From Microcella pacifica (GTDB lineage: Bacteria; Actinomycetota; Actinomycetes; Actinomycetales; Microbacteriaceae): a stretch of DNA of 64,000 bases. Made by a program: the position numbers and the translations under genes. The notes beneath the pieces were generated by a model. The model searched no databases. It was not told where the DNA came from and saw nothing but the letters and a program-made list of their open reading frames with translations. The stretch covers positions 71,813 through 135,812 of the forward strand of contig NZ_VIKT02000003.1 of the NCBI RefSeq assembly GCF_009371975.2, in the 5' to 3' direction. Positions 17,939 to 61,041 of the stretch are shown one piece after another. Positions within the stretch are counted from its first letter, which is position 1. Every line of letters begins with the position of its first letter.

Positions 17939-17956
17939 ACCAAGCAACTGCTAGTT
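17939..17956. promoter_or_regulatory. KstR2-type operator 1
   Basis: ACCAAGCAACTGCTAGTT lies in the 98-bp gap between divergent SDR genes. The right half reads CTAG instead of CTTG and forms a TAGTTT -10-like hexamer (17952-17957) facing the plus-strand gene. Confidence 0.7.
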
Positions 17957-17991
17957 TGGCAGAGGTTCTGTTTATCGACGAAGGAGTCAGC

Positions 17992-18900
17992 ATGCCCCGG
18001 CAGACCGTGACGGTCGTCACCGGCGCGAGCACGGGAATCGGGCGCGCGGTCGCCCTACGTCAGGCTCGCGCCGGCGATCGCGTGTGGGCCTTGGTGCGAG
18101 ATCCGGCAGCGTGTGCCGAGATCGAGAACACCGCACAGCACGAAGGGCTCGCCCTTCATCTCGTCGCGGGAGACGTCACCGACGACGCGTCAACCGCAGC
18201 GGCCTTCAAGCACATTCTCGATGTGAGCGGGCATGTCGACCGCCTGATCAGCAACGCCGGTGCCTATCTGGGGGCACCCTTCGAGTCGATGACCGTGGAC
18301 GAGCTCCGCGGCGTCTTCGAGGTCAACTACTTTGGTGCCCTTCGCTGCGTGTCCCACGTGCTCCCCGGCATGCGTCGCGCCGGTGGCGGCATCATCATCG
18401 CAGTGAGCTCGCAATCCTCCGAGGCGATTTTTCCTACTTGGACGGCATACGCAGGTTCCAAGCGCGCGCTCGAGGCTTCTCTCGAGTCGCTCGCGCTCGA
18501 GGTCGCCAGCCTGGGAATCAGGATCGCGATTGTGCAGCCGGGAATCACCGCGACCGCCATGCGCACAAAGATTCAGCCCCGCAGCAATCCTCCGGCGTAC
18601 GACGCACTGCTACAGCGGTATCGCACGATCATCGCCGCCGACCGCGGCGACAGCATGGAGCCAGACGACGTCGCGCAAGCCATTCAACGCACCATCGAAG
18701 ACGCTCAATCACCGTGGCGCGTTCGGGTAGGTCGGGATGCGCAGCGCAACATCGACATGCGGCAGGCCGCTGGCGACGAGCAGTGGATCAGCTTGTTCGG
18801 CGCGACGAGCGACGACACGTTTTTCGCGGCGTGGACAGCGCTCAGCGGCTCGCCAGACCCGCGCGATCGTGCGGATGAGTCCCTCGCCGATCCACACTGA
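17992..18900 (+). CDS. SDR oxidoreductase
   Basis: A 302-residue classical SDR: TGASTGIG near residue 9, a SNAGAY segment near 85 and YAGSK near 155. The C-terminus is longer than usual and resembles 17-beta-HSD-like SDRs. The ATG at 17992 is preferred over an upstream TTG because AAGGAG lies 5 nt before it. The substrate is not readable from sequence. It precedes echA20 by 59 bp, a gap that contains two further operators, so the two genes can be controlled separately. Confidence 0.85.
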   Translation: MPRQTVTVVTGASTGIGRAVALRQARAGDRVWALVRDPAACAEIENTAQHEGLALHLVAGDVTDDASTAAAFKHILDVSGHVDRLISNAGAYLGAPFESMTVDELRGVFEVNYFGALRCVSHVLPGMRRAGGGIIIAVSSQSSEAIFPTWTAYAGSKRALEASLESLALEVASLGIRIAIVQPGITATAMRTKIQPRSNPPAYDALLQRYRTIIAADRGDSMEPDDVAQAIQRTIEDAQSPWRVRVGRDAQRNIDMRQAAGDEQWISLFGATSDDTFFAAWTALSGSPDPRDRADESLADPH

Positions 18901-18910
18901 CCCCCGGTCA

Positions 18911-18928
18911 ACCAAGCAAGTGCTAGGG
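18911..18928. promoter_or_regulatory. KstR2-type operator 2 (first of a tandem pair)
   Basis: ACCAAGCAAGTGCTAGGG, upstream of echA20. TAGGGT at 18924-18929 is a possible -10. Its centre is 20 bp from the second site, about two helical turns, so two dimers could bind the same face of the DNA. Confidence 0.75.
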
Positions 18929-18930
18929 TA

Positions 18931-18948
18931 AACAAGCAATCGTTAGGT
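18931..18948. promoter_or_regulatory. KstR2-type operator 3 (second of a tandem pair)
   Basis: AACAAGCAATCGTTAGGT ends 11 nt before the echA20 start codon and runs into its Shine-Dalgarno sequence (AAGGA). A repressor here would block the main echA20-ipdABC transcript. Confidence 0.7.
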
Positions 18949-18959
18949 AAGGAATTCCC

Positions 18960-19718
18960 ATGGCAGTGAGTTCAACCGTTCGTCACAAGGGCGTTCGCGT
19001 CGTCACGATGGACTACCCCCCGGTCAACGCACTCCCCGTGGCGGGCTGGTACGCCGTCGCCGATGCGGTGCGCGATGCCGGAAACGACGGCGAGACGCGC
19101 GTGGTCGTACTGCGCGCCGAAGGCCGAGGCTTCAATGCCGGAGTCGACATCAAGGAGATTCAGGCGACGGAGGGGCACAGTGCCCTGCTCGAGGTAAACC
19201 GCGCATGCTACGCGGCCTTCAAGGCGATCTACGAGTGCGCCGTGCCGGTCATCTCGGCGGTCAATGGCTTCTGTCTCGGCGGAGGCGTGGGCTTGGTCGG
19301 CAGCAGTGATGTCATCGTCGCCTCCGACGACGCCTACTTCGGAGTGCCCGAAGTCGACCGCGGTGCACTCGGGGCGGCCACACACCTGGGCCGCCTGGTT
19401 CCACAGCACATGCTGCGAGCGCTCTACTACACGAGCACGACCGTTTCGGCCCAGCGCCTTCACGACCTCGGCACGGTGCACGCGGTGGTGCCGAGTGCCG
19501 ACCTCGACGATGCGGCATTCGCCTTCGCCGACCAGATTGCCGCGAAAGACACTCGGGTGATCCGGGCGGCCAAAGAAGCGCTCAACGGGATTGATCCGAT
19601 CGACATCAACCTGAGCTACCGCTTCGAACAGGGCTTCACCTACGAACTGAACCTCGCGGGAGTCGCCGACGAACATCGCGACGCCTTCGTGCAGCACGGC
19701 GGCACCCTCTCCACGTGA
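18960..19718 (+). CDS. echA20: EchA20-type ring-D hydrolase (crotonase superfamily)
   Basis: In the mycobacterial pathway EchA20 hydrolyses the five-membered ring of the oxidised HIC-CoA intermediate to give COCHEA-CoA. The 252-residue product resembles that family over its full length: DYPPVNALP near residue 20, RAEGRGFNAGVDIKE near 55, VNGFCLGGGVGLVG near 100, GVPEVDRGALGAATHLGRLVPQH near 125 and the C-terminal FTYELNLAGVADEHRDAF. As in mycobacterial EchA20, the first crotonase Glu is replaced (GGGVGLVG) and the second is kept (PEVDRG). AAGGA precedes the ATG. It is first of a four-gene overlapping operon with ipdA, ipdB and ipdC. Confidence 0.92.
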   Translation: MAVSSTVRHKGVRVVTMDYPPVNALPVAGWYAVADAVRDAGNDGETRVVVLRAEGRGFNAGVDIKEIQATEGHSALLEVNRACYAAFKAIYECAVPVISAVNGFCLGGGVGLVGSSDVIVASDDAYFGVPEVDRGALGAATHLGRLVPQHMLRALYYTSTTVSAQRLHDLGTVHAVVPSADLDDAAFAFADQIAAKDTRVIRAAKEALNGIDPIDINLSYRFEQGFTYELNLAGVADEHRDAFVQHGGTLST

Positions 19719-20587
19719 ACGACCCACAGATCGAGCTCGACGACGTCGCGGACCTCATCCACGACGGCATGACGATCGGCATCGGGGGCTGGGGCTCGCG
19801 CCGCAAGCCACTCTCTCTTGTCCGGGCCGTCGTGCGGTCGGGTGCGCAGGACCTCACGATCGTGAGTTTTGGCGGACCCGATGTGGGGATTCTCTCGGCC
19901 ACCGGCCAGGCAACGACCGTGATCCACGGTTTCGTCTCCCTCGACTCTGTCGCCATCGACCCGCACTTCGCCGCACGACGTGAGGCCGGCACGATCTCGA
20001 GCATCGAATGGGATGAAGCAATGCTGGTCGCCGGGCTTCGCGCCGCAGCCCGCCGACTGCCCTTCGAGGTAGTGCGATCGGGAGTCGGCTCAGACGCCGT
20101 TGAGCGAGACCCCTCCTTGCGCACGATCGCCTCACCGTACGGCGACGGGGAAGAGCTGCTCGCTGTGCCCGCCGTGCCACTCGATCTGGCCCTGATCCAC
20201 CTCGATCGTGCCGACGAAACAGGCAATGTGCAACTGCTCGGACCCGATCTGTTCTTCGACGACCTCTTTGTCGACGCGGCGCAGACCGCCATCGTGAGTG
20301 TGGAAGAAATCGTGCCGCGCGGAAAGCTCGCGACGACCGAGGCTCTCTCGTCGATCGTGCTCACGCGCGCCTCGGTCGACCACCTCGTGCTGGCCCCCGG
20401 CGGAGCAGGCTTCACAGCCCACCCGCCCTACGCGGAGCGCGACGAGGCGCTGCAGTCGCACTACGTCGACGCTGCTCGGGATCCCCAGGCGTGGGCGGCC
20501 TTCGCCACACAGTTCCTCACAGTGTCCGACGAGCAATACCGCGCGTCGGTCACCGCCTTCGCTCGAAATGTCGCGGGTGCGCAGTGA
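19715..20587 (+). CDS. ipdA: IpdA-type subunit of ring-cleaving hydrolase (copy 1)
   Basis: IpdA and IpdB form a CoA-transferase-fold enzyme that hydrolyses the six-membered ring of COCHEA-CoA. This 290-residue subunit has the family opening GMTIGIGGWGSRRKPLSLVRA near residue 18, GGPDVGIL near 50, GFVSLDS near 75, and the acidic WDEAM segment near 100, which probably corresponds to the catalytic-Glu region of mycobacterial IpdA. The GTG at 19715 overlaps the echA20 stop (GTGA). It differs clearly from the second copy near 32.5 kb; for example, it has WDEAM where copy 2 has YDEGM. Confidence 0.9.
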   Translation: MNDPQIELDDVADLIHDGMTIGIGGWGSRRKPLSLVRAVVRSGAQDLTIVSFGGPDVGILSATGQATTVIHGFVSLDSVAIDPHFAARREAGTISSIEWDEAMLVAGLRAAARRLPFEVVRSGVGSDAVERDPSLRTIASPYGDGEELLAVPAVPLDLALIHLDRADETGNVQLLGPDLFFDDLFVDAAQTAIVSVEEIVPRGKLATTEALSSIVLTRASVDHLVLAPGGAGFTAHPPYAERDEALQSHYVDAARDPQAWAAFATQFLTVSDEQYRASVTAFARNVAGAQ

Positions 20588-21336
20588 TGGCCACTCGGGC
20601 AGAGGTTGCCGTAACGGCCTGCAGCGACCTGTTCCGTGGTGCCGGCGCGATCCTGGCGAGCCCTACCGGCATCGTCGCGGGCATCGGCGCACGCCTCGCG
20701 CGCCTGACCCACGCTCCCGACTTGCTGCTGAGTGACGGTGAGGCCACCCTGTATGCCGACACCCCCGCTATCGACGAGCCGTTCCGCGAACCCGAAGCAC
20801 CTCTTCCCTACCGCGCGCTGTTCGAGCTCATCGCGCGCGGTCGGCGCCACGTCGTGATGGGCGCCGCACAGATCGACCGTTTCGGCAACCAGAACCTCTC
20901 AGCGATCGGCGATCGCGACCACCCCCGGCGGCAGCTGCTCGGCGCTCGCGCCGCCTCGACCAACACCCTGAACCACCGCACGAGCTACTGGATCGCGCGC
21001 CACGCACCGCGCACCTTTGTCGAACGGGTCGATGTCGTGACGGGGATCGGTACCGATCGCGCCGCTGCGCTCGGAAGGGCAGGGCGCTTTCACGACCTGC
21101 ATCGCATCGTCACCAACCTCGCCGTGCTTGACCTCAGCGGGCCCGAGGGCACCATGGCCATCGTGAGCACGCACCCCGGCGTGAGCGTTGACGAGGTGCA
21201 AGCAGCGACCGGTTTCGAACTGTGGGTGCCGCCCACGGTGCCGACGACCCGCGAACCCGACGACGACGAGGTGTCGATCATCCGCGACCTCCTCGACCCC
21301 CGAGGCTTACGAGAACGAGAGGTTCCTCAGCCATGA
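20587..21336 (+). CDS. ipdB: IpdB-type subunit of ring-cleaving hydrolase (copy 1)
   Basis: The partner of IpdA copy 1, with 249 residues, which matches the family length. Landmarks are RAEVAVTACSDLFRGAGAIL at the start, LARLTHAPDLLLSDGEA near 40, MGAAQIDRFGNQNLSAIGD near 100 and SYWIARHAPRTFVERVDVV near 140. The ATG at 20587 shares its first base with the last base of the ipdA stop (TGATG). No CoA-transferase Glu in an EN/ENG-type motif is visible, in agreement with the hydrolase rather than transferase activity known for IpdAB. Confidence 0.9.
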   Translation: MATRAEVAVTACSDLFRGAGAILASPTGIVAGIGARLARLTHAPDLLLSDGEATLYADTPAIDEPFREPEAPLPYRALFELIARGRRHVVMGAAQIDRFGNQNLSAIGDRDHPRRQLLGARAASTNTLNHRTSYWIARHAPRTFVERVDVVTGIGTDRAAALGRAGRFHDLHRIVTNLAVLDLSGPEGTMAIVSTHPGVSVDEVQAATGFELWVPPTVPTTREPDDDEVSIIRDLLDPRGLREREVPQP

Positions 21337-22406
21337 GCACTCCACCGAAGATTCGCACCGCGCTCACCGAACTCACCGGTGTCGACCACCCGATCGTCCA
21401 GACCGGTATGGGATGGGTCGCCGGGCCACGTCTGGTCTCAGCCAGCGCCGAAGCCGGTGCCCTGGCGATCCTCGCCTCGGCGACGATGACGATCGAAGAA
21501 CTCGAGAGAGCGATCATCGAGGTGAAGGGTCGCACCGAACGCCCCTTCGGCGTGAACCTGCGCGCAGACGCTGCGGATGCCAGCGCTCGAGCCGAGCTGC
21601 TGATCCGCCACGATGTCGCCGTCGCCTCGTTCGCTCTCGCCCCCAAACGTGAACTCATCGACAAACTGAAAGAGCACGGCATCGTCGTGATTCCGTCGAT
21701 CGGGGCCGTGCGGCACGCCCAAAAAGTGCAGGAGTGGGGTGCCGACGCGGTCATGGTTCAGGGCGGAGAAGGGGGCGGCCACACCGGTGCGGTGCCCACC
21801 TCGATACTGCTCCCCTCGGTCGTGTCGGCGGTCGACATTCCGGTGATTGCGGCGGGCGGTTTCCACGACGGTCGCGGCCTGGCGGCAGCCCTGGCCTACG
21901 GGGCAGTGGGGGTCGGAATGGGCACTCGCTTTCTCCTCACCAGCGACAGCGCGGTTCCCGAGGCCATCAAGCGTCGGTATCTCGAGTTCGGTCTTGACGG
22001 CACCGTCGTGACGACAAAGGCCGACGGCATGCCCCACCGCCTGCTGCGCACCGAGTATGTCGAGGAGCTCGAGAGCACCAATCGGCTGCGCACTCTGATT
22101 CCGACGGCACGTCGTGCCCTAGAGTTCCGGCGCATCAGCGGAATGTCGTGGCCGCAGTTCCTCACCGACGGTCTCGCGATGAAGAAAGCCACCGGCCGCA
22201 GCTGGTCGCAGATGGCGGTCGCCGCGAACACTCCCATGCTGCTCAAGGCGGGGCTGGTCGACGGCGACACGAAGGCCGGGATGCTCGCCTCCGGCCAGGT
22301 CGTCGGCCTCATCGATGACCTGCCGAGCTGCCAAGAGCTCGTCGATCGGGTGATCAACGATGCCGTGACGCATCTGGAGCGCGCCGCCGCCACCATCATC
22401 CGGTGA
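21333..22406 (+). CDS. ipdC: IpdC-type FMN-dependent oxidoreductase (nitronate monooxygenase fold)
   Basis: IpdC acts with IpdF and EchA20 on 5-OH-HIC-CoA in mycobacteria and Rhodococcus. The 357-residue product is a TIM-barrel flavoprotein of the nitronate monooxygenase/2-nitropropane dioxygenase superfamily. It has HPIVQTGMGWVAGPRLVSA near residue 17, VMVQGGEGGGHTG near 135 and AAGGFHDGRGLAAALAYGAVGVGMGTRFL near 175, the FMN phosphate site. The ATG at 21333 overlaps the ipdB stop by 4 nt. It ends the operon; a strong hairpin follows. Confidence 0.9.
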   Translation: MSTPPKIRTALTELTGVDHPIVQTGMGWVAGPRLVSASAEAGALAILASATMTIEELERAIIEVKGRTERPFGVNLRADAADASARAELLIRHDVAVASFALAPKRELIDKLKEHGIVVIPSIGAVRHAQKVQEWGADAVMVQGGEGGGHTGAVPTSILLPSVVSAVDIPVIAAGGFHDGRGLAAALAYGAVGVGMGTRFLLTSDSAVPEAIKRRYLEFGLDGTVVTTKADGMPHRLLRTEYVEELESTNRLRTLIPTARRALEFRRISGMSWPQFLTDGLAMKKATGRSWSQMAVAANTPMLLKAGLVDGDTKAGMLASGQVVGLIDDLPSCQELVDRVINDAVTHLERAAATIIR

Positions 22407-22414
22407 TAGCGAGC

Positions 22415-22444
22415 GCGGGCTGGCCTCTCGCTCGGCCAGCCCGC
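22415..22444. terminator. Bidirectional hairpin terminator between ipdC and fadA6
   Basis: A perfect 11-bp stem (GCGGGCTGGCC / GGCCAGCCCGC) with an 8-nt loop lies in the 48-bp gap between two convergent operons. It can end both transcripts. No T-tract is visible on either side. Confidence 0.75.
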
Positions 22445-22454
22445 CCGCTCGGTG

Positions 22455-23606
22455 TTAGAGACGCTCGATGATCGTCACGTTGGCGACGCCGCCGCCCTCG
22501 CACATCGTCTGAAGCCCGTAGCGGCCGCCGCGACGTTCAAGCTCGTTGAGCATGGTGGTCATGAGTCGCGTGCCGGTCGCGCCGATCGGGTGCCCGAGAG
22601 CGATACCTCCACCGTTCACGTTGACCCGCGAGTGATCGGCCCCGGTCTCTTTTATCCAGGCCATCACGACCGACGCGAAGGCCTCGTTGACCTCGAACAG
22701 ATCGATGTCGTCGATGCTCATGCCCGCGCGCTGCAGAGCATGTTTCGTCGCCGGAATGGGTGCGGTGAGCATCCACACCGGATCAGCGGCCCGCACCGAC
22801 AGGTGGTGGATGCGCGCCCGCGGGGTGAGACCGTGCGTGCGTACCGCGCTCTCGGAGGCGATGAGCATGGCAGAGGACGCATCGCTGATCTGCGAGGACA
22901 CCGCTGCCGTGACCCGACCACCTTCGACCAGCGTCGGCAGGGAGGCCATCTTTTCGAGCGAGGTCTCACGACGCGGGCCCTCATCGACCGAGAGGCCCGC
23001 CAAGGGCGCGATCTCTGCCTCGAATCGACCCTCATCGGTGGCGGCGATCGCACGCCGGTGACTCTCGAGGGCGAAGACCTCCATCTCTTCCCGGCTGAGG
23101 TTCCAGTGCGTGGCGATCATCTCGGCCGCGCGAAACTGTGAGACCTCTTGGTCGCCGTAGCGTGCGCGCCAGCCCGGCGACTCGGCAAACGGAGTCGTGA
23201 ACCCGAACTCGGCACCGGCCATCATGGCCGATGAGATGGGAATGGCCGACATGTTCTGCAGCCCGCCCGCCACGACCAGATCGGCCGTTCCCGACATCAC
23301 CGCTTGCGCCGCGAAGTGAACGGCCTGCTGGCTCGACCCGCACTGCCGGTCGACGGTCACCCCGGGAACATGCTCCGGCAGGCCCGCGACGAGCCAGGCC
23401 GTGCGCGCAATGTTGCCCGCCTGCGAGCCCAGTGTGTCGGTGCACCCCATGATGACGTCGTCGACCGCGGCGGGGTCAATGCCCGAGCGCTCCATGAGCG
23501 CGCCGATCGCGTGCGCGCCCAGATCTGCGGAGTGCACGGCGGCGAGGCTTCCGCCGCGCTTGCCCACGGGGCTCCGAACAGCGTCGATGATGTAGGCAGT
23601 GCTCAT
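22455..23606 (-). CDS. fadA6: FadA6-type thiolase
   Basis: FadA6 is the KstR2-regulon thiolase that cleaves the beta-keto acyl-CoA made after ring opening. The 383-residue product shows the nucleophile Cys in [18 protein letters not shown] near residue 90, the His in [14 protein letters not shown] near 340 and the second Cys in [16 protein letters not shown] at the C-terminus. The ending and the [11 protein letters not shown] and [15 protein letters not shown] segments resemble mycobacterial FadA6 rather than FadA5. The ATG at 23606 is chosen because the family start ([16 protein letters not shown]) follows at once. It is last of a fadE30-ipdF-fadA6 operon. Confidence 0.92.
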
Positions 23607-23629
23607 GGCGGGGTTCCCTTCGATGGGTG

Positions 23630-24421
23630 TCACGGGTGCTGGCTGCTGACGGAGACGACCTCGCCCGTCATGTACGAGGAGTAGTCGCTCGCGAGGAAGA
23701 CCATGACGTTCGCGATCTCCCACGGCTCCGCCGCGCGCCCGAAGGCTTCGCGCGATTTGAGCTCCTCGAGAAGTTCGGGCGTCGTCACCTTCTCGAGAAA
23801 GGGGTGCATGGCCAGACTCGGCGAGACGGCGTTCACCCGAATACCGTGCGGAGCAAGATCTTTCGCCGCCGAGCGAGTGAGTGCCATCACGCCGGCCTTA
23901 GCGGCCGCGTAGTGCGCTTGACCCTCCTGGGCGCGCCATCCAATGACGGAGGCGTTGTTGACGATGACCCCGGGATGCTGCGCCTCCACCATGCGTCGCG
24001 CTGCGGCCCGCACACAGCGGAAGGTTCCCGTCACGGTCACGTCAAGCACGAGCGACCACTGCTCATCGGTCATCTCGAGAATCGAGACGGTGCCCCCGAG
24101 GCCAGCGTTGTTGATCATGACGTCGATCGGTCCGGCAAGCTCTGCCGCATCGAGCATGGCGGCAATCTGCTCTTCGCGAGTCACGTCGCACACGACAGCG
24201 GTCACGCGCTCAGCCCCGAACTTCTCGGCCAGCTCGGCTCGAGAAGCCTCGAGCCTGCCCTCATGCGTGTCACCGATCGTGACGTGCGCCGCGCCCTCTT
24301 CGAGGCACCGCAGTGCGGTGGCGGAGCCGATCCCCGCTCCGGCCGCCGCAGTGATGACGACTCGGCGGCTCGCGAGCAGGCCGTGTCCGCTCGGGTAGTC
24401 GGGAAGTGTGCTGGGGGTCAT
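23630..24421 (-). CDS. ipdF: IpdF-type SDR (5-hydroxy-HIC-CoA dehydrogenase)
   Basis: IpdF oxidises the 5-hydroxyl of the HIC-CoA intermediate. The 263-residue SDR has the unusual cofactor loop TAAAGAGIGSATA near residue 24, NNAGLGG near 110, and the block VIVNNASVIGWRAQEGQAHYAAAKAG with the catalytic Tyr and Lys near 170. The C-terminus, AFGRAAEPWEIANVMVFLASDYSSYMTGEVVSVSSQHP, ends in SSQHP, much like mycobacterial IpdF. It overlaps fadE30 by 4 nt, the same order as in mycobacteria. Confidence 0.92.
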   Translation of the reverse strand: MTPSTLPDYPSGHGLLASRRVVITAAAGAGIGSATALRCLEEGAAHVTIGDTHEGRLEASRAELAEKFGAERVTAVVCDVTREEQIAAMLDAAELAGPIDVMINNAGLGGTVSILEMTDEQWSLVLDVTVTGTFRCVRAAARRMVEAQHPGVIVNNASVIGWRAQEGQAHYAAAKAGVMALTRSAAKDLAPHGIRVNAVSPSLAMHPFLEKVTTPELLEELKSREAFGRAAEPWEIANVMVFLASDYSSYMTGEVVSVSSQHP

Positions 24422-25587: not shown

Positions 25588-25653
25588 GTCGTCGTCTCCT
25601 CGCTGAGCTCAGGGGGTGGCTGTCGAACTCTTCCGTCACGTATAGTAGCAATA

Positions 25654-25671
25654 ACCAAGCATTTGTTTGGT
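25654..25671. promoter_or_regulatory. KstR2-type operator 4
   Basis: ACCAAGCATTTGTTTGGT is nearly symmetrical in its outer arms. It sits in the 135-bp divergent region between fadE30 and the crotonase gene. Its first 14 bases fit AnCAAGnnCTTGnT with one change. A TATAGT hexamer lies just upstream (25641-25646). Confidence 0.85.
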
Positions 25672-25722
25672 GGATTGGCCGGATTGCCCATCAGGTCGAC
25701 CCACCCACGGTGAGGAGAGCTG

Positions 25723-51842: not shown

Positions 51843-51872
51843 TCACCTGGCATACCGATCGAAGGAGATCCC

Positions 51873-54394: not shown

Positions 54395-54431
54395 GGCTAG
54401 GACTGTCGAGCGTTCCCGGCTACGATCAGTT

Positions 54432-54449
54432 AGCAAGCAAATGCTTGGT
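54432..54449. promoter_or_regulatory. KstR2-type operator 11
   Basis: AGCAAGCAAATGCTTGGT ends 14 bp before the ATG of an SDR gene. The inner 14 bases AGCAAATGCTTGGT fit the KstR2 box with one change. It separates the BVMO operon from the SDR-thioesterase-SnoaL operon. Confidence 0.8.
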
Positions 54450-54463
54450 AGTGGAGGAGCGTC

Positions 54464-55207
54464 ATGGGCGATGCACAACTCGGCTTCACGGCCGACGACA
54501 CGATTTTGATCACAGGGGCGGGAAGCGGCATCGGCCGAGCCACGGCCTTGCGCGCGGCCGAACAGGGACTGCGCGTGAGCGCCTGGGACATTGCCCCCGG
54601 GGGAGTGCACGAGACGGTCGACCTCATCACTGCCGCGGGAGGAACCGCGCGCGCATGGGTCGGCGACGTGTCGGATCCCGAGATCGTGACCACCGGCTTG
54701 CGCGATGCGGTCGAGGCTCTCGGTCCCGTTCGCTATCTGCACAACAACGCCGGACCCGCCTCAGCACACCCACTCGAGTTCGACCGGGCCATCCACATCT
54801 CCCTGGGCAGTGTGCGCCGGATGACCGACACCTGGGCCGCGAGTGGCCTGCCCGAAGGCGCAGCCATGGTTGTCACCACCTCGGTTGCGGGCAACCTCGT
54901 CGGCACCGATGTCGACTGGTACTCCACGGCAAAGGCGGGCCTCATGGGCTACGTGCGACACCTGGCAGCGCACCGCGCCCACGAGTTTCGCAGCAATGGC
55001 GTGGCACCGGGTATGACAGACACCCCCCGGCTCGCCTCGTTCAAGGCAAGTGAGATCGGCAATCGCGTGCTCGAGCGAATCCCCCTCAAGCGCATGGCGA
55101 CGGCCGACGACATCGCGTGGGCGACGCTCTTCCTGTTCTCTCCCCTCGCCGGGTACATCAACGGTGTCTTTCTGCCGGTTGACGGGGGTTGGACGGTCAC
55201 GCAGTGA
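54464..55207 (+). CDS. SDR oxidoreductase
   Basis: A 247-residue SDR with TGAGSGIGRATALRAAEQG near residue 14, NNAGPASAHPLEF near 90 and YSTAKAGLMGYVRHLAAH near 150. The C-terminus INGVFLPVDGGWTVTQ is FabG-like. GGAGGAG precedes the ATG. It starts an operon with a hotdog thioesterase and a SnoaL-like protein, with overlaps at each junction. Confidence 0.86.
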   Translation: MGDAQLGFTADDTILITGAGSGIGRATALRAAEQGLRVSAWDIAPGGVHETVDLITAAGGTARAWVGDVSDPEIVTTGLRDAVEALGPVRYLHNNAGPASAHPLEFDRAIHISLGSVRRMTDTWAASGLPEGAAMVVTTSVAGNLVGTDVDWYSTAKAGLMGYVRHLAAHRAHEFRSNGVAPGMTDTPRLASFKASEIGNRVLERIPLKRMATADDIAWATLFLFSPLAGYINGVFLPVDGGWTVTQ

Positions 55208-55653
55208 GCACGGCCGCTTCGGTGCTGCACAGTCACACCATCCGCTTGAGCTACGCCGACACCGACCCCGCGGGCATCCTGTACTACGGTTCGTGGTTTC
55301 CGAAAATGGAAGGCCTGCAGAGCGAGTTTCTCTTTATGCAGGGCTTTCGTCAGGACACTCTGGCCGAACGCTTCGGCTGGTGGACGGTCTCGCGCGCGAC
55401 GCGCTGCGACTACCTCGCCGCCGCGCGCCTGTTCGATGAGATCAGAATCGACCTGCGCTTGGGTGAGATCGGCACCAGTTCGTTCCGCTTCGACTTCGAG
55501 ATGCGTCGCCTGAGCGATGACGTTCTGGTGGCCACCGCATCCAACACTGCGGTGACCGTTGATCTCAGCCAGCGCCCGGTTCGTATTCCCGACGATTTTC
55601 GGCGGCACCTCAACGGCTGGCTCGCCGCCCACCGAGAGGGCGCCCCCGCATGA
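55204..55653 (+). CDS. Acyl-CoA thioesterase (4-hydroxybenzoyl-CoA thioesterase-type hotdog)
   Basis: A 149-residue single-hotdog protein. LSYADTDPAGILYYGSWFPKMEGLQSEFLF near residue 12 contains the D-P-A-G-I-x-x-Y pattern and catalytic Asp of this thioesterase family. It should release a free acid from an acyl-CoA and so may relieve CoA trapping when a late intermediate accumulates. The GTG at 55204 overlaps the SDR stop (GTGA). Confidence 0.85.
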   Translation: MSTAASVLHSHTIRLSYADTDPAGILYYGSWFPKMEGLQSEFLFMQGFRQDTLAERFGWWTVSRATRCDYLAAARLFDEIRIDLRLGEIGTSSFRFDFEMRRLSDDVLVATASNTAVTVDLSQRPVRIPDDFRRHLNGWLAAHREGAPA

Positions 55654-56084
55654 GCACCGAGCTGCACGACCTGACTGCGCGCCTGGCCATCACGAGCCTG
55701 CTCGCGCGCATTGCCCACTTGGCCGACGACGGAGAGGTCGCCGAGTACCTGGCTTGCTTCACCGCAGACGCCAGTTGGGAGCTGAAGAACGGCCGCGGCC
55801 TCGACCTTGCGCCGCAGGTTCGCCGCGGCTACGACGAGCTCGCTGCCGGGGTGCATGAGCGACGCGCGAGCGGAATGCAGGGCCCCGGCAGCCACACGAT
55901 GCACGACATCTCGAGCATCGACATTCGGGTCGACGGCGACACCGCGCGGGCGACGAGCTACTTTCGCTACTACCGTTCGACCGACGCCACGCCAGAACTT
56001 GTCACGATGGGCCGGTACGACGACGAGTTCACGAAGACGGTGGACGGCTGGCGCATGCGGCGCCGCGTCATCCGTCGCGACTAG
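55650..56084 (+). CDS. SnoaL/NTF2-like protein
   Basis: A 144-residue cone-shaped alpha+beta barrel of the SnoaL-like family. It starts LTARLAITSLLARIAHLADDGEVAEYLACFTADASWEL, the typical helix-helix-strand entry, and ends RYDDEFTKTVDGWRMRRRVIRRD. Members are isomerases, hydrolases or hydroxynitrile-type enzymes; ketosteroid isomerase shares this fold. It overlaps the thioesterase gene by 4 nt and the convergent MBL gene by 17 bp. The reaction cannot be decided. Confidence 0.8.
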   Translation: MSTELHDLTARLAITSLLARIAHLADDGEVAEYLACFTADASWELKNGRGLDLAPQVRRGYDELAAGVHERRASGMQGPGSHTMHDISSIDIRVDGDTARATSYFRYYRSTDATPELVTMGRYDDEFTKTVDGWRMRRRVIRRD

Positions 56085-57123
56085 CGGCGACCGACAGCCA
56101 ACGCTCCGCGCGGCCGGTCTCGACGAACTCCTTGTGCAGTTCGGTCTGCCGGAGGGCGGAGTGTAGCCAGAAGTCGTGCATGCCGTCCCATCCCGCCGTC
56201 CAGGTCAGACGACGTGCGTATTCCCAGACGGGAGCGTCGCCCAGTGTCGGCACGAGCGCCGCCACTTCGCGAGTGCGACGCAGGTGGTGGTTCACGATCT
56301 CCTCACGGCGACCCTCGAGCCCGATGAAGCGAAACTCGTGCCCGGGCAGCACCTGATAGTCATCCATCGGCGCGAGACGGTCGAGCGACGTGAAGTAGTC
56401 GTGGAGGGGGTCGGTGTCGGGCAGAGTGCCCAGCCCGATTCCCGCGAAGATACGGGGCAGTACGTGGTCTCCGGAATAGACCAGGTGGCGGCGATGGTCG
56501 ACCAGGCAGACGTGTCCCCCGGTGTGCCCGGGGGTCTCGATGATCTCGAGGTCGTGCTCGGCAATCGGGAGGCGCTCACCGTGCTGCATCGTGAGGTCGG
56601 GCTCAAGGTCATCGACCTCCGCCGACCGCCCGAACGAGGCCAACAACTCGTCCTGGCGATCGCTGGGTACACCCCATCGCGTCAACTGAGCCGGAACATC
56701 GAGCTCGTCTGCTCGGGATGGTGCAGTCTCCTGTGCGAGAACGGCCCGTTCGGTGCTCGAGAGGATGATTCGGGCGCCCACCTGCTCGCGCACCGCAGCG
56801 CACAGCCCCAGGTGATCGGGGTGGAAGTGCGTCGCGATGACCGTCTCGACGGCATCGAGCGAATAACCGATGACTCCCAGTGAGCGCTCGAGCTCGCCCA
56901 TGGCGGCCTCCCCACCCCACCCCGGATCGATGAGGTGCACGGACCCGTCTCCGGAGACGAGAACGTAGGTCAGCGTGGCGGGGAGCGATCCCTGGGGGAT
57001 CGGCGAGGCTATCGCCCAAACGCCCTCAGCAACCTGTTCGGGATTCGCCGCGACACCGGAGTCCCAGGCGACTTGCTGGGCCTGGCTCGCAGGGTGTACT
57101 GAGGTCGAGCCCGCAACTGCCAT
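56068..57123 (-). CDS. MBL-fold metallo-hydrolase
   Basis: A 351-residue metallo-beta-lactamase-fold protein with the di-metal motif THFHPDHLG (HxHxDH) near residue 110, a His in ETPGHTGGHVCL near 215 and a C-terminal extension (RRTREVAALVPTLGDAPVWEYARRL). It could be a thioesterase or lactonase; the glyoxalase II-like layout supports hydrolysis of a thioester or lactone. It is divergent from an MFS exporter gene, with operator 12 between the starts. Confidence 0.83.
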   Translation of the reverse strand: MAVAGSTSVHPASQAQQVAWDSGVAANPEQVAEGVWAIASPIPQGSLPATLTYVLVSGDGSVHLIDPGWGGEAAMGELERSLGVIGYSLDAVETVIATHFHPDHLGLCAAVREQVGARIILSSTERAVLAQETAPSRADELDVPAQLTRWGVPSDRQDELLASFGRSAEVDDLEPDLTMQHGERLPIAEHDLEIIETPGHTGGHVCLVDHRRHLVYSGDHVLPRIFAGIGLGTLPDTDPLHDYFTSLDRLAPMDDYQVLPGHEFRFIGLEGRREEIVNHHLRRTREVAALVPTLGDAPVWEYARRLTWTAGWDGMHDFWLHSALRQTELHKEFVETGRAERWLSVAASRDG

Positions 57124-57165
57124 GCATCGAATCTAGTTCGCCGGAGCGCGCAAGGCCATTCCAAA

Positions 57166-57183
57166 ACCAAGGAAACGCTTGTT
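57166..57183. promoter_or_regulatory. KstR2-type operator 12
   Basis: ACCAAGGAAACGCTTGTT, between the divergent MBL-hydrolase and MFS genes. A TAGGCT -10-like hexamer (57187-57192) follows and faces the MFS gene. Confidence 0.7.
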
Positions 57184-57209
57184 TGCTAGGCTTCGAGAAG
57201 GAGGCGGGT

Positions 57210-58589
57210 ATGCGACGGTGGCGCACGGAACGAGCTCTCGTTCCGGTACTCGCTCTCGCCGGCATGCTGTCGTCTCTGCAGTTCACGCTGATTCTGCCGA
57301 CCTTGCCCGAGATTCCCGGCGTTCTCGGAATCTCGGCGAACGACGCCACCTGGATCGTGACGATCACGCTCCTGACCTCGACGGTCGGTAGCCCCATCAT
57401 CGGCAGGCTCGCCGATCTCTTCGGGCGTCGGCGTCTCCTTATCGCCGCCCTCGCCTCCCTGGTACTGGGCTCGCTGATCGCGGCTCTCGGCATGACCTTT
57501 CTCACGGTGCTCATCGGCCGTGCGCTGCAAGGACTGGCGGCAACGATCATTCCGGTCGGCATCAGCCTGCTCCGAGAGGTCGTCGGCCGCGAACGATCCA
57601 ACTCCGGAATCGGGTTCATCAGCGCCACCCTCGGCATCGGCTCAGCGCTCGGCCTTCCCCTCTCCGGCGTCCTCTCTAGCCTGGGCGGGCTCGCGGCCCT
57701 CTTCTGGTTCTCGGCTGCGACCGGAGCCGTGTTCCTCGTGCTCGTGATCCTGGTGCTGCCCGAGCCAGCGGGCCGCGCGACCGGCGGCTTCGACATCGCC
57801 GGCGCAGTCTTGCTCTCGATCACTCTGACCGCCGCCCTCATCGCCATCTCGAAGGTGCTGGTGTGGGGCCCGCTGAGCGCCGAGCTGCTCGCCGCTGTCG
57901 TCATCTGCCTCACCGCGCTCGTGGCGTGGATTGTGCGCTCGCTGCGCATCGCCAGCCCGATCATCGACCTCCGCCTCTCGTTCGGCATGCCGGTGGTGAT
58001 CATCAACATCGCCTCCTTCTTGATCACGTTCGGCATGTTCGCGAACCATTTCCTGACGATCCACGAGGCGCGGGCACCCCTCGACACCGACATGGGCTTG
58101 GGCATTCCCGCCATCAGCGCAGGGCTCATTCTGATGCCCTCTGCCATCGCCATGTTCTCCGTCGCTCCCCTCGCCGGAAAGCTGCTGAACCGAGTGGGTG
58201 GCCGCCCGACTCTGGCCCTCGGAAGCGCAATCATCGCCTCGGCCTATGTCTTCCGTCTGCTCGTGCACGGCGACATCGTCGCTGTCGTGGTGGGTGCCCT
58301 GCTGGTGGGAATCGGCACCGCATTCGCCTTCGCCGCCATGCCCTCGCTCATCAACGATGCGGTGCCGCTGCATTCCTTGGCCTCAGCAAACTCGGTCAAC
58401 GCCGTGGTGCGTTCGCTGTCGGGCGCAACGGCGAGCGCAACGCTGGCCTTTCTCATCGTGGCCGTGCCGAGTGCGGCCGATCCCGACTTTCTCGCCGAGT
58501 CTGGGCTGGTCATCGCCTTCGCCGTGACCGCGACCTTCGCCGCTGCGGCTGCCCTCCTGGCCTTCACCCTCCCCCGCCGAGCGCGCTGA
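57210..58589 (+). CDS. MFS exporter, DHA2-like (14-TM drug:H+ antiporter type)
   Basis: A 459-residue membrane transporter with about 14 hydrophobic segments. TLPEIPGVLGISANDATWIVTITLLTSTVGSPIIGRLADLFGRRRLL near residue 30 is the MFS TM1-TM2 region with the G-R-L-A-D-x-x-G-R-R loop. The ATG at 57210 with GAAGGAGG upstream is preferred to an upstream TTG. It probably exports a toxic intermediate or a related hydrophobic acid; substrate is not readable. Confidence 0.87.
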   Translation: MRRWRTERALVPVLALAGMLSSLQFTLILPTLPEIPGVLGISANDATWIVTITLLTSTVGSPIIGRLADLFGRRRLLIAALASLVLGSLIAALGMTFLTVLIGRALQGLAATIIPVGISLLREVVGRERSNSGIGFISATLGIGSALGLPLSGVLSSLGGLAALFWFSAATGAVFLVLVILVLPEPAGRATGGFDIAGAVLLSITLTAALIAISKVLVWGPLSAELLAAVVICLTALVAWIVRSLRIASPIIDLRLSFGMPVVIINIASFLITFGMFANHFLTIHEARAPLDTDMGLGIPAISAGLILMPSAIAMFSVAPLAGKLLNRVGGRPTLALGSAIIASAYVFRLLVHGDIVAVVVGALLVGIGTAFAFAAMPSLINDAVPLHSLASANSVNAVVRSLSGATASATLAFLIVAVPSAADPDFLAESGLVIAFAVTATFAAAAALLAFTLPRRAR

Positions 58590-58603
58590 CCTTCTGGACC
58601 CCT

Positions 58604-58621
58604 ACCAAGCACGCGCTTGGT
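58604..58621. promoter_or_regulatory. KstR2-type operator 13
   Basis: ACCAAGCACGCGCTTGGT, the most symmetrical site (arms ACCAAGC and GCTTGGT). A TAGTCT hexamer (58621-58626) follows and ends 6 nt before the ATG at 58633, so the message is probably leaderless. Confidence 0.85.
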
Positions 58622-58632
58622 AGTCTGGTGTG

Positions 58633-59847
58633 ATGGATGCTGTACCCCCGGTCTCGGACCCCGCCCTCTTTCGACCCCTGACGCTTCGGGGCGTCACGAT
58701 CCCGAACCGCGTCGGGGTCTCCCCGATGTGCATGTATTCCTCCACTGACGGGGCCGTCACTGACTTCCACCTGGTTCATCTGGGACGCTTCGCCCTCGGC
58801 GGCGCAGGTCTCGTCGTGATGGAGGCCACCGCGGTGACCCCCGCCGGCCGCATCTCGCCTCGCGACGCGGGCTTGTGGAGCGACGACCACCTTCCGGGGC
58901 TCCGCCGCATCGCTGGCGTCCTCACCGAGCAGGGCTCGGTTCCCGGAATCCAGCTTGGCCACGCAGGACGGCGAGCTGCCGTGACTGAACCGTGGCATGG
59001 CGGGCAGCCCCTGGTGTGGTCCGAGACAGAGCCCGGTCGCGAACCCTGGGCCCTGCAGGCACCCTCCGCCGCCCCGGCGGGCCCCGAGTGGCCCACACCT
59101 CGCGCGCTCTCCGAGTCTGAGCTCACGGCGAGCCTCGACCTGTGGGCGGCTGCGGCGCGCCGCGCATCCGAAGCCGGCTTTCGTTTCCTCGAACTGCATG
59201 GCGCTCACGGCTACCTGCTGCACTCCTTCCTCTCGCCGTTGTCGAACCATCGCAGCGACGCGTATGGGGGCACGCCCGAGGCCCGCATGCGGTACCCGCT
59301 CGAGGTCGTCCGCGCCGTGCGCGCGAGCCTGCCCGCCGAGACGGCCCTGTCGTATCGCGTGTCGACCGTTGATGGCATTGACGGAGGCCTCACTCTCGAC
59401 GACACGGTCGTCTTTGCCGAACGGCTGGCCGAGGCAGGAGTCGACATCATCGACACCTCGTCGGGCGGCATCACGACCGACCGCAGCGTCGACACCCGCG
59501 TGCGACGCGGCTTCGCCTTCCACGCCGATTTCTCCCGCGCCGTGCGCGAGCGCGTCGGCATCCCGACCGCGACGGTGGGCTTAATCGTCGACCCCCAGCA
59601 GGCTGATGCGCTGATCGATCACGGGGATGCTGACCTCGTGCTGCTCGGACGAACCGCGCTCGATGACCCCAACTGGCCGAACCGAGCACGCCATGTGCTC
59701 GGCGCCGTCGACCCGACTGCAGACCCGCGCTTCGAGAGCTACCTCACGCCGTGGCGCGCCGGAATCGAGCGTCTGTTGGCACGCGGCGAGTCGCCCCTGT
59801 CACGGTTCGAGATCGATGCCCCGGAGGAGGTCACGGGCCTCCCCTGA
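58633..59847 (+). CDS. Old yellow enzyme, YqjM/NamA class (flavin ene-reductase)
   Basis: It should reduce activated C=C bonds (enones) with NAD(P)H and FMN. The 404-residue protein has the class III OYE features: VGVSPMCMYSSTDGAVTDFHLVHLGRF near residue 30 (with the regulatory Cys), HAGRRA near 107, ELHGAHGYLLHSFLSPLSNHRSDAYGG near 185 (catalytic His pair and FMN contacts), and the C-terminal LVLLGRTALDDPNWP. It has no Shine-Dalgarno sequence; the start is fixed by the leaderless-type promoter. It overlaps the convergent SnoaL-like gene by 48 bp. Confidence 0.88.
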   Translation: MDAVPPVSDPALFRPLTLRGVTIPNRVGVSPMCMYSSTDGAVTDFHLVHLGRFALGGAGLVVMEATAVTPAGRISPRDAGLWSDDHLPGLRRIAGVLTEQGSVPGIQLGHAGRRAAVTEPWHGGQPLVWSETEPGREPWALQAPSAAPAGPEWPTPRALSESELTASLDLWAAAARRASEAGFRFLELHGAHGYLLHSFLSPLSNHRSDAYGGTPEARMRYPLEVVRAVRASLPAETALSYRVSTVDGIDGGLTLDDTVVFAERLAEAGVDIIDTSSGGITTDRSVDTRVRRGFAFHADFSRAVRERVGIPTATVGLIVDPQQADALIDHGDADLVLLGRTALDDPNWPNRARHVLGAVDPTADPRFESYLTPWRAGIERLLARGESPLSRFEIDAPEEVTGLP

Positions 59848-60264
59848 TCCGTTCAGCAACCGAGCGGTGCGGTGTCGCACCTTCCACGACCCCGCCACCC
59901 TCTCCAGCTCCCACCGATTGGCGCTCACCCGCACCGCAGCCCACTCGTTGCCGTCGTGTCGCAGCACGATGGAGTGATTGACCGCGTGCGCCCGGTCGCC
60001 CTGCAGGGTGACGCGCGGCGTGGAGAGCACGTGTGCGCAGCCCGCCGCGAGATAGTCGCGATGAGCATCCCACTCAACGAGCGCTGGCACCTCATCACCG
60101 ACCATCGTCACGGCATCCACGGTGTAGCTACCCTCCGGATGCCAGAGCTCCGCAATCGCCTCAGAGTCGGCAGCGTCTGCTGCTGGCCCGTATGCGGCGA
60201 GCAGGTTCATGATCGCGAGATGGTCTTCGACCGCCTGCAGGCGCTCTTCGAGCGACGAACTCAC
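59800..60264 (-). CDS. SnoaL-like (NTF2-fold) protein
   Basis: A 154-residue NTF2-fold protein that begins EERLQAVEDHLAIMNLLAAYGPAADAADSEAIAELWHPEGSYTVD, with the Tyr and Asp positions used by scytalone-dehydratase-like enzymes. The C-terminus has RWELERVAGSWKVRHRTARL. The GTG at 60264 overlaps the upstream gene's stop (GTGA). It is different from the SnoaL-like protein near 55.8 kb. A dehydratase or isomerase role is possible but not shown. Confidence 0.78.
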   Translation of the reverse strand: MSSSLEERLQAVEDHLAIMNLLAAYGPAADAADSEAIAELWHPEGSYTVDAVTMVGDEVPALVEWDAHRDYLAAGCAHVLSTPRVTLQGDRAHAVNHSIVLRHDGNEWAAVRVSANRWELERVAGSWKVRHRTARLLNGSGEARDLLRGIDLEP

Positions 60265-61016
60265 CAGTCTTGCCAGGGAATGATCGTGGTCACCGCGCTC
60301 GAGAGCAGCTCGCGCTCGACGGGGCTCTCGCCCATCTCACGTTGGAGGCGCTCGATCTCGGCAGCAACCGCCACGGGCTCGTCGTCGAGATAGGCCAGGC
60401 GGATGCGAATACTGCCCGGCCGATACGCGTCGTCTCCGTTCAGCGGGAGGGAAGAGTGTCGCTGGGAGTGACTGAATGAGAATGTCCAGGCACCGGCAAC
60501 ACCATCGAGCTCGAGCATGTCGGGAATCAGCTCGCGGTCTTCACGCTGGAAGACATCGTGTGCGTCGAGACTGTGCGGCTCGTCAAAGTGCGTCACTCGC
60601 ACATGCAGACCCTTGTTGGGACGATAGGGAAGCACATCGCTCGAGACCAGAGCTCGAGGCGCTGCGTATCCCTTGACCGGTCGGAAGAAGGCGAGCATGG
60701 CCCGCTCCACCCCCGGAATCAGCGGACCGCGACCCCACTGAAACGATGCTTCACCGAGGGCATCCCAGGCCGCGACAGCGTCGCTGACGGGCGGTCGAAA
60801 CCAGTACATGGCCATGTAGTCGACATCGACAAGCGGACCCTGCGCGCGGGAGTTCTCGGCGCAGTCGCCGCGTCGAGCCCACCGGTCGCCCCACGCGACA
60901 CCCGGCAACGCCAGGTTCTCAGGCCGATGGTCCAGCTGGTGCCACTCGTTGTAGGCCCGATGCTGCGTCGGATCGGTGAGGCGAACGAACGAGAAGAAGG
61001 CAAGCTCGGAGAACAT
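60261..61016 (-). CDS. Hypothetical protein, possibly of the EthD-like dimeric alpha/beta-barrel fold
   Basis: A 251-residue protein I do not recognise with certainty. It starts FSELAFFSFVRLTDPTQHRAYNEWHQLDHRPENLALPGVAWGDRW, which resembles EthD-like barrels in the Y-N-E-W-H-Q-x-D-H pattern, and its second half (LHVRVTHFDEPHSLDAHDVFQREDRELIPDMLELDGVAGAWTF) may be a second barrel. EthD-like proteins often accompany P450s. The ATG at 61016 has operator 14 directly upstream. It is followed in the same direction by a SnoaL-like gene with a 4-nt overlap. Confidence 0.6.
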   Translation of the reverse strand: MFSELAFFSFVRLTDPTQHRAYNEWHQLDHRPENLALPGVAWGDRWARRGDCAENSRAQGPLVDVDYMAMYWFRPPVSDAVAAWDALGEASFQWGRGPLIPGVERAMLAFFRPVKGYAAPRALVSSDVLPYRPNKGLHVRVTHFDEPHSLDAHDVFQREDRELIPDMLELDGVAGAWTFSFSHSQRHSSLPLNGDDAYRPGSIRIRLAYLDDEPVAVAAEIERLQREMGESPVERELLSSAVTTIIPWQDW

Positions 61017-61023
61017 GCCCCTA

Positions 61024-61041
61024 GTCAAGCGCTTGCTTGGT
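61024..61041. promoter_or_regulatory. KstR2-type operator 14
   Basis: GTCAAGCGCTTGCTTGGT contains the exact core CAAGCGCTTG of the KstR2 box. It lies 7 bp upstream of the hypothetical protein gene's ATG on the minus strand. Confidence 0.8.

Follow-up and report, generated by a model that had tools for sequence, protein, structure and literature searches.

The best-described counterparts of the system considered here are the KstR2 regulons of mycobacteria and related bacteria. In the mycobacterial case 15 genes are controlled through three sites (Kendall 2010, PMC3068626). A much wider KstR2 regulon has been predicted in Nocardioides simplex, where 29 operons were assigned to it, only 10 of which were induced by phytosterol (PMC7807495). 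HIP, a two-ring steroid remnant, has served for growth of Mycobacterium smegmatis (PMC5380842) and, when extracellular, as a biomarker of estrogen degradation (PMC12507874). In Rhodococcus jostii, one ABC transporter (CamABCD) and one MFS transporter (CamM) re-import cholate metabolites, including perhydroindane ones (PMC8399759).

Here we analyse a stretch of 64,000 nucleotides from Microcella pacifica (contig NZ_VIKT02000003.1, positions 71,813 to 135,812; hereafter the window, whose own numbering is used throughout), in which a set of 18-bp palindromes accompanies a kstR2 homologue and genes for predicted ring C/D enzymes. We consider it probable that this cluster is a KstR2 regulon carried on one island, and that it supplies the lower steroid pathway for HIP taken from outside. 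Searches of open-licence literature returned no account, for any of the Microbacteriaceae, of a KstR2 regulon or of a HIP pathway standing alone, and the word Microbacterium does not occur in the part of PMC4810484 that was searched.

Palindromic sites in the window

A sequence-only reading of the window had proposed fourteen imperfect 18-bp palindromes, spread over twelve promoter regions, with none noticed at a coding position. All 14 of these 18-mers were recovered by script and by pattern searches, and they fall in 12 intergenic regions. They are listed with their scores and with the number of relatives, among the six named below, in which the orthologous gene also has a site.

17939..17956, operator ACCAAGCAACTGCTAGTT, between SDR 16988 (-) and SDR 17992 (+); 24.2 bits; before the 16988 orthologue in 4/4 relatives having it
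18911..18928, operator upstream of echA20-ipdA-ipdB-ipdC; 22.3 bits
18931..18948, second operator upstream of echA20; 25.4 bits; at the echA20 orthologue in 4/5 relatives
25654..25671, operator between fadE30 (-) and echA (+); 29.2 bits; fadE30 5/5, echA 6/6 relatives
32465..32482, operator between SDR 31684 (-) and ipdA2 (+); 25.6 bits; ipdA2 6/6 relatives
34785..34802, operator between kstR2 (-) and fadD3 (+); 21.0 bits; kstR2 6/6 relatives, weak (14-16 bits) in three Microbacterium
40546..40563, operator separating the P450 operon (-) from an epoxide-hydrolase-type gene (+); 19.6 bits; neither gene found in the six relatives' regions
44754..44771, operator between SDR 43913 (-) and SDR 44.8 (+); 24.2 bits; SDR 43913 5/5 relatives
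50358..50375, operator in front of both the ABC importer (-) and SDR 50445 (+); 19.5 bits; overlapped at 50354 by a palindrome of 20.4 bits
50404..50421, second operator in the intergenic region shared by the ABC importer and SDR 50445; 23.6 bits; at the ABC binding-protein gene in 4/4 relatives having it
54432..54449, operator upstream of SDR 54464 (+), thioesterase and SnoaL-like genes; 27.3 bits; 4/5 relatives
57166..57183, operator between a metallo-beta-lactamase-fold gene (-) and an MFS gene (+); 23.1 bits; MFS 2/3, metallo-beta-lactamase-fold 2/5 relatives
58604..58621, operator upstream of an old-yellow-enzyme-type oxidoreductase gene; 25.9 bits; absent at the orthologue in 2/2 relatives
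61024..61041, operator upstream of 60261-61016 (-) and SnoaL-like 59800 (-); 20.8 bits; 3/3 relatives

One more site, the fifteenth, is AACAAACAATTGCTTGCT (26.5 bits) at window coordinate 64266-64283, 266 bp beyond the window edge and upstream of etfB; the set goes on past position 61041, where the sequence-only reading had ended it. All 15 of the 15 sites are intergenic, given start codons picked by hand at 17992, 32504 and 50306, and intergenic DNA makes up 3.5% of the island delimited below. The start at 17992 is supported by an SDR profile that begins at residue 4, and those at 32504 and 50306 by protein lengths resembling the relatives'; the longest open frames of ipdA2 and the ABC binding-protein gene would cover the sites at 32465 and 50358, and would place the site at 17939 at a frame edge.

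From the 14 sites, without any mycobacterial data, we built a symmetric matrix whose palindrome reads ACCAAGC-N4-GCTTGGT. Leave-one-out scores of the sites range from 13.7 to 28.5 bits; 12 random 64-kb sequences with the base-step frequencies of the window yielded on average 0.33 hits that reached 13.5 bits, and no hit reached 16. The earlier wording 'near-identical' is generous, as the sites carry 0-3 mismatches to the half-sites. Scanned over 104 kb of the contig (C23:51813-155812), the matrix gives no hit of 13 bits or more beyond the island; the whole genome was scanned with patterns. Within the window, with up to three mismatches, the consensus given earlier had 10 strand matches (nine places) against 0.03 expected, and the symmetric pattern ACCAAGCNNNNGCTTGGT returned all 14 sites plus one extra at 3039. 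Across the genome, ACCAAGCANNCGCTTGGT with up to three mismatches gave 31 strand matches, corresponding to 14 cluster places and 10 others, the backwards control giving 16; these 10 places carry two or three mismatches, lie in the remaining 2.7 Mb and are fewer than the control matches. The stricter ACCWARCNNNNGYTWGGT, with one mismatch at most, occurs at nine places in the whole genome, all nine inside the cluster (control, 3). No Rfam match was obtained in the window, and no sigma-70-like promoter was found in 50000-62000, where 0.9 would be expected.

Relation to published KstR2 operators

The window matrix scores nine of nine published KstR2 operators at 19-29 bits, and three Mycobacterium tuberculosis operators among these nine were bound in electrophoretic mobility shift assays (PMC3068626). 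Judged by sequence, these scores are the strongest tie between the window sites and KstR2. The claim that each site contains the published 14-bp box AnCAAGnnCTTGnT, exactly or with one or two changes, held in its looser part: all 14 sites are one or two changes away from the box, and none is an exact copy; of the two forms, ACCAAGC-N4-GCTTGGT is the stronger palindrome in this set. Copies with one mismatch are not enriched in the genome (51 against 73 in the control). One of the nine published operators, that of ro04652/04653, also departs from the box (PMC3068626). Identity to AnCAAGnnCTTGnT is a descriptive trait and not a strictly defining one for KstR2 operators.

We also counted pairs of CAAG and CTTG at spacings of 4-24 without recourse to the matrix, in seven groups of sequences drawn from the cluster regions and from some of the KstR2 loci that had been fetched. 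Two start-to-start spacings rise above the others, which average 0.17-1.33: 6, as in the published box, and 10, as in the 18-bp palindrome. The counts at spacings 6 and 10, respectively, were as follows.

Window stretch: 1 (spacing 6), 4 (spacing 10)
Microbacteriaceae and Arthrobacter relatives: 13 (spacing 6), 14 (spacing 10)
Nocardioides/Marmoricola: 5 (spacing 6), 4 (spacing 10)
Mycobacteriales: 14 (spacing 6), 10 (spacing 10)
Pseudonocardiales: 6 (spacing 6), 3 (spacing 10)
Streptomyces: 4 (spacing 6), 5 (spacing 10)
Streptosporangiales: 30 (spacing 6), 3 (spacing 10)

For the loci examined, these counts sharpen the picture of the KstR2 operator, of which the published 14-bp box is only a part; the two spacings occur in proportions that differ by group. 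In eight of nine published operators and in six of the 14 window sites the 18-bp palindrome is doubled, its two overlapping copies being offset by four bases and the weaker scoring at least 12 bits; part of this pattern follows from the resemblance of the motif to itself at a shift of four. It is conceivable that two repressor dimers on overlapping sites explain the double palindromes. A de novo motif search had been made on the upstream sequences of 64 kstR2 regions, the non-redundant ones of 80, but settled on a non-palindromic segment, probably conserved coding sequence; the spacing count took its place.

The regulator

The TetR gene at 34149-34760 (-) had been called a KstR2 homologue flanked by a site, and this is borne out: the site at 34785 separates it from fadD3, which begins at 34868 (+). 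Among solved structures, its best matches are 2ibd (E 3e-48; title 'possible transcriptional regulator') and then two chains of KstR2, 4w1u and 4w97 (4e-46), after which the E-value rises to 2e-21. In the recognition segment 20 of 23 residues are identical to those of 4w1u. The stretch yrfiRD..W, which we take to be the HIP-CoA contact region of KstR2, is kept. The protein is 44-48% identical to five Mycobacteriales KstR2 proteins and less than 50% identical to that of M. tuberculosis. Identity above 50% to the M. tuberculosis protein was reported among orthologues in a survey limited to Mycobacteriales (Kendall, PMC3068626), and as a threshold for KstR2 membership this value is descriptive.

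A tree was built from 43 KstR2-like proteins, picked by hand out of more than 80 and rooted at the midpoint, in which G096, a genome of the same family, has a long branch. The window protein groups with those of three Microbacterium, G096 and two Arthrobacter (support 100/98), and its closest named KstR2 relatives are from Microbacterium. We treat the regulator as a KstR2 with a divergent ligand domain, a classification that is supported by these comparisons; operator binding and a response to HIP-CoA are predicted.

Genes of the cluster

The genes are given below. Their names follow a comparison with the Mycobacteroides chelonae locus and mycobacterial usage; most NCBIfam hits of the cluster genes bear other names or fall below cut-offs.

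34149..34760 (-), kstR2, TetR-family repressor, 203 aa; KstR2 PDB chains among the three best; TetR_N, TetR_C_24
34868..36481 (+), fadD3, HIP-CoA ligase type; NCBIfam 'FadD3 family acyl-CoA ligase' 618 bits, below cut-off 657
18960..22406 (+), echA20-ipdA-ipdB-ipdC, predicted ring D and C opening; family profiles; ipdA against 6co6 E 9e-79
22455..25587 (-), fadE30-ipdF-thiolase; 58-71% identity to Mycobacteriales loci
25723..29832 (+), echA-fadE31-fadE32-fadE33; IpdE2 model on 27746 and 28717, below cut-off
32504..34143 (+), second set ipdA2-ipdB2; ipdA2 against 6co6 E 3e-98
36510..40533 (-), P450, epoxide-hydrolase type, ferredoxin and ferredoxin reductase; operon not found in relatives' regions
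42696..43916 (-), second thiolase; NCBIfam PRK07851, 714 bits, above cut-off 580
45610..50306 (-), branched-chain-type ABC importer (binding protein, permeases, ATPases), candidate HIP importer; family profiles
51212..54394, PadR-like gene (-) divergent from lipase and steroid-monooxygenase-type Baeyer-Villiger monooxygenase (BVMO) genes (+); no operator
57210..58589 (+), MFS transporter; Pfam MFS_1
62475..63990 (-), etfA plus the greater part of etfB (reaching window coordinate 64221); etfA by Pfam; behind the site 64266-64283

Fourteen window genes, kstR2 among them, are best matches to genes of the M. chelonae KstR2 locus, at 38-68% identity; the ring C/D gene set of the mycobacterial locus is present, with enzyme activities that are predicted. 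FadD3 is 43-45% identical to the ligase in four of five Mycobacteriales loci, and echA20 and ipdC reach 64-70% and 63-65% identity to these loci. The PDB chain 6co6 we take to be IpdA; the ipdA2-ipdB2 pair is mostly a better match to mycobacterial ipdAB than is the first ipdAB. Counterparts of fadE31-33 are found in M. chelonae, and of all four genes of the echA-fadE31-33 set in Nocardia nova. The fadA6-type thiolase that lies near kstR2 in Mycobacteriales has its counterpart here at 22455-23606, not at 42696-43916. EtfB was assigned through a 66% orthologue in G096 (Pfam ETF). The lipase is LipP1-like, below cut-off, and the BVMO has the steroid monooxygenase 4aos as its best solved match (E 4e-168).

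By gene order, about 42 genes in the window would be controlled by the sites, or 44 with etfBA, which agrees with the earlier statement that the regulon is wider than the mycobacterial one. That statement had drawn P450, BVMO-adjacent, ABC importer, old-yellow-enzyme (OYE) and MFS genes into the regulon. Sites are present at the P450, ABC, OYE and MFS genes; the BVMO gene is without one and lies beside the PadR-like gene. Control by PadR was considered for the lipase-BVMO operon only, which has no operator. Estrogen 4,5-seco degradation, with the P450 AedA and the dioxygenase AedB (PMC12507874), was rejected as a role for the P450: the genome has no match to the HsaC dioxygenase model at E 1e-3, and the eight plasmid relatives of the P450 listed among 135 records show 29-34% identity.

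Conservation of sites in relatives

Regions were fetched from six relatives, namely G096, Microbacterium sp. Se63.02b (G199), Microbacterium paraoxydans, Microbacterium resistens, Arthrobacter sp. APC 3897 and Nocardioides sp. SLBN-35. Because codon-score gene calls broke up or misread many genes of G199 and G200, orthologues were taken as non-reciprocal tblastn best hits (44% identity, half coverage). Orthologues of site-bearing window genes have a site in 69 of 81 cases, against 14 of 115 for site-less ones; the Fisher test on these counts assumes independence between genes, an assumption broken where a divergent pair has one site in common. Conserved locations are fadE30/echA, SDR31/ipdA2, kstR2/fadD3, SDR43/SDR44, ABC importer/SDR50, SDR54 and 60261. 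For the ABC importer, a site precedes the orthologues of three Microbacterium and of one Nocardioides. A site accompanies the metallo-beta-lactamase-fold gene in two of five relatives and etfB in one of four; the etfB site is at the same place in G096 and lacking in the three Microbacterium. No P450 operon turned up in any of the regions fetched from the six relatives, and its site is without counterpart; the OYE gene has no site of its own at two of two orthologues; and the BVMO and lipase genes are site-less both in the window and in three Microbacterium.

Two further observations concern the relatives themselves. In Microbacterium sp. Se63.02b, a partial second ipdA/B/C-like set and two more KstR2-like genes, with operators nearby, lie at L092 6620-14153, and the HIP module of this strain looks partly duplicated. 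In M. paraoxydans (L097 11694) there is a site between the VOC and SDR30 orthologues; a site is also found near SDR30 in Se63.02b and in Nocardioides, and is lacking in the window.

Boundaries of an acquired island

In the congener G189, the genes matching window 13444-14853 and 65664-66167 adjoin each other; nucleotide homology ends at window 15034 and resumes at 65452, and therefore about 50.4 kb has been inserted (window ~15035 to ~65451, of which 15035..64000 lies in the window). The congener G137 has the same join with about 1.7 kb between the flanks. The join is visible in two of three congeners, the stretch of G074 that was examined ending short of the far flank. Third-position GC content is 0.86-0.96 in flanking genes and mostly 0.74-0.88 inside the island, with one gene at 0.67. 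A tRNA-Gln gene at 65455-65527 has its 3' end facing the island. At E 1e-25, KstR2 was found in none of the three congeners, in two of 199 family genomes and in six of 396 order genomes, both counts including the window's own genome; among these six, two proteins are only 36% identical, and G502 looks to be the same genome as G203 (same coordinates). No integrase or other mobility gene was seen among 52 gene calls, etfB being scanned only through its orthologue. Given the empty site in congeners, the differing composition and the tRNA at one end, the regulon is, on this comparative evidence, a horizontally acquired island.

A 13-bp direct repeat, CGCGACGCGTGCG, is present at window 15019 and 65211, near both island ends; its right copy is about 240 bp from the tRNA, and the repeat may or may not be an attachment remnant. 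Beyond the island, window ~66699-68394 (L008 2699-4394) carries genes for a low-molecular-weight phosphatase (arsenate-reductase-like), an ArsR-family protein and an aquaporin-family protein (Pfam), with no match at the locus in G137 and G189, and is perhaps a second small insertion. Elsewhere, at L007 ~4001-8000, a stretch of 60% GC lies within surroundings of about 70% GC, beyond a tRNA-Leu at 2945-3019.

Search for the ring A/B pathway

The HsaC model had no match in the window's own genome at E 1e-3, and nothing there exceeded 40 bits for HsaD or 43 bits for KstR, both generic values. Since the HsaD and KstR models score generically in 13 of 14 control genomes, only the lack of high scores counts. 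For KstD and KshA the queries were putative Nocardia nova proteins, picked by motif and sequence features only; they gave no match in the own genome at E 1e-10, no search being made for KshB, and score high in Nocardioides SLBN-35, Gordonia and Mycobacteroides. The genome, a small one, does not resemble that of a complete 9,10-seco degrader, none of KstD, KshA, HsaC, HsaD and KstR rising beyond generic scores.

Six further KstR2 carriers were similar (G096, G199, G200, G201, G572 and G581). HsaC reached 26-51 bits in them against a cut-off of 450; KstD was not found save for a 33% match in G200 (82 bits), and KshA was not found in G199, G201, G572 and G581, with 28-29% matches in G096 and G200. 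Searches with HsaD and KstR were confined to carriers other than G572 and G581. Arthrobacter genomes form the exceptions: G202 has all three proteins, and in G203 a KstD match of 383 bits has one internal stop.

Proposed explanation and its alternatives

In the explanation that we favour, a TetR-type KstR2 would sit on 15 copies of the 18-bp palindrome and repress most operons of the island, its own gene included. Imported HIP would be converted to HIP-CoA by FadD3, and HIP-CoA would release KstR2 from its operators. IpdF, FadE30, EchA20, IpdC, IpdAB, FadE31-33, the thiolases, the electron-transfer flavoprotein (ETF) and the importers would then be made. As no ring A/B pathway was found in the host, it probably takes up HIP or close relatives from outside, most likely via the branched-chain-type ABC importer, whose binding protein has no match in a plasmid collection at E 1e-20. 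Such uptake is the simplest reading of FadD3, ring C/D enzymes, ETF and an ABC importer behind operators, in a genome where no means of making HIP was seen. For the importer, N. simplex offers a parallel by description: no gene there responded more strongly to phytosterol (59-fold) than one for an 'ABC amino acid transporter' of cluster C (PMC7807495), and cluster C is predicted to be part of the KstR2 regulon (PMC7593942). What the sequence shows are the sites, the gene set with its orthology, the island boundaries and the lack of those ring A/B genes that were looked for; KstR2 binding, HIP-CoA as ligand, the operons, the importer's substrate and the scavenging way of life are predictions.

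Several observations weigh against this explanation. The exact box AnCAAGnnCTTGnT occurs nowhere in the genome, the regulator is identical to 4w1u at only 81 of 188 positions (43%), and in the tree its group sits in a 13-member branch (100/99) that includes Nocardioides SLBN-35 and stands apart from Mycobacteriales. G096 has no ABC importer of this type within the 80 kb fetched. The assembly is a draft of 62 contigs, and ring A/B genes could lie on a plasmid that it lacks. In Arthrobacter G202 this cluster occurs alongside KstD, KshA and an HsaC-like protein (324 bits, below cut-off). M. resistens MZT7 is reported to transform estradiol, with androstadienedione among the products, only kshB and fadD3 being placed in steroid degradation by KEGG (PMC9518027), and for a Microbacterium proteolyticum ring cleavage is mentioned in a review (PMC12507874). 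Microbacterium may thus do more to steroids than scavenge.

These last points bear on a variant in which the regulon is as proposed but the host degrades whole steroids, the ring A/B genes lying on a missing replicon or being replaced by unrecognized enzymes such as the P450 system and the BVMO. The draft state of the genome, the steroid-monooxygenase-type BVMO with its lipase, the operator-preceded P450 with a ferredoxin and a reductase of its own, the estradiol report and the presence of both halves in Arthrobacter G202 and Nocardioides G204 all speak for it. We nevertheless regard it as unlikely: genome completeness is 99.99%; HsaC (37 bits), KstD and KshA are equally missing in Microbacterium Se63.02b, whose record is titled complete genome, and in G572 and G581, which consist of two contigs and one; and the solved relatives of the P450 are varied, with 162 bits at best. 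Slightly less probable again is a regulator that is a sister of KstR2 with another ligand, controlling breakdown of some other perhydroindane or terpenoid by the same downstream enzymes. The separate 13-member branch would fit such a sister, as would the extra SDR, OYE, P450 and epoxide-hydrolase-type genes outside the mycobacterial regulon; the counterparts of 14 M. chelonae KstR2-locus genes, the shared recognition segment and the retained yrfiRD..W stretch argue for KstR2 itself. That the palindromes are a repeat family or chance matches instead of operators could be suspected from the two close pairs (18911/18931 and 50358/50404), but we give this hardly any credence, since the sites are promoter-confined, symmetric, kept at orthologous promoters across genera and similar to operators proven by mobility shift; the idea is already largely contradicted.

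Under the favoured explanation of a KstR2 regulon for imported HIP, one may go further and ask whether some Microbacteriaceae form a guild of dedicated HIP scavengers, which would carry the lower pathway as a self-contained, transferable island with its own repressor and importer and cross-feed on complete steroid degraders. We put this forward tentatively, judging its chances to be a little short of even. If true, KstR2 would in these bacteria sense imported HIP instead of an internal intermediate. Work on steroid breakdown usually has a single organism perform the whole of it; the regulator and the enzymes would come as no surprise to a specialist, but the missing upper pathway would. A self-contained, regulated, transferable lower half with no upper half found would make a division of labour in steroid breakdown directly testable, and the analysis names a candidate HIP importer.

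Comparison with known systems

The mycobacterial and Rhodococcus KstR2 regulon shares with the window island the TetR repressor, the kind of operator and the divergent promoters served by one site, as well as counterparts of fadD3, echA20, ipdABC, ipdF, fadE30-33, the cluster thiolase and two SDR genes. It differs in size, with three sites and 15 genes against 15 sites and a predicted 44 or so genes, and in lying near KstR-controlled ring A/B genes, which were not found here; the island adds a second ipdAB and ABC, MFS, OYE, P450 and ETF genes.

The KstR2-type clusters of Nocardioides (N. simplex, PMC7807495; SLBN-35) resemble the island in the order ipdA2B2-kstR2-fadD3, in their many operons and, for SLBN-35, in an ABC importer behind a site. 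Unlike the window's host, SLBN-35 also has KstD, KshA, HsaC and a KstR-like protein (265 bits, cut-off 280). The HIP clusters of M. paraoxydans, M. resistens and Microbacterium sp. Se63.02b have mostly the same genes and operators, and HsaC, KstD and KshA are missing or weak there as here (M. resistens: KstD-like 82 bits, KshA-like 118 bits). Unlike the window, these three have no P450 operon in the fetched regions, an OYE gene with no site of its own (2/2) and an etfB without a site (3/3). With CamABCD and CamM of R. jostii, likened by description, the island shares the pairing of one ABC and one MFS transporter, and the KstR2-type sites at the window importers set these apart.

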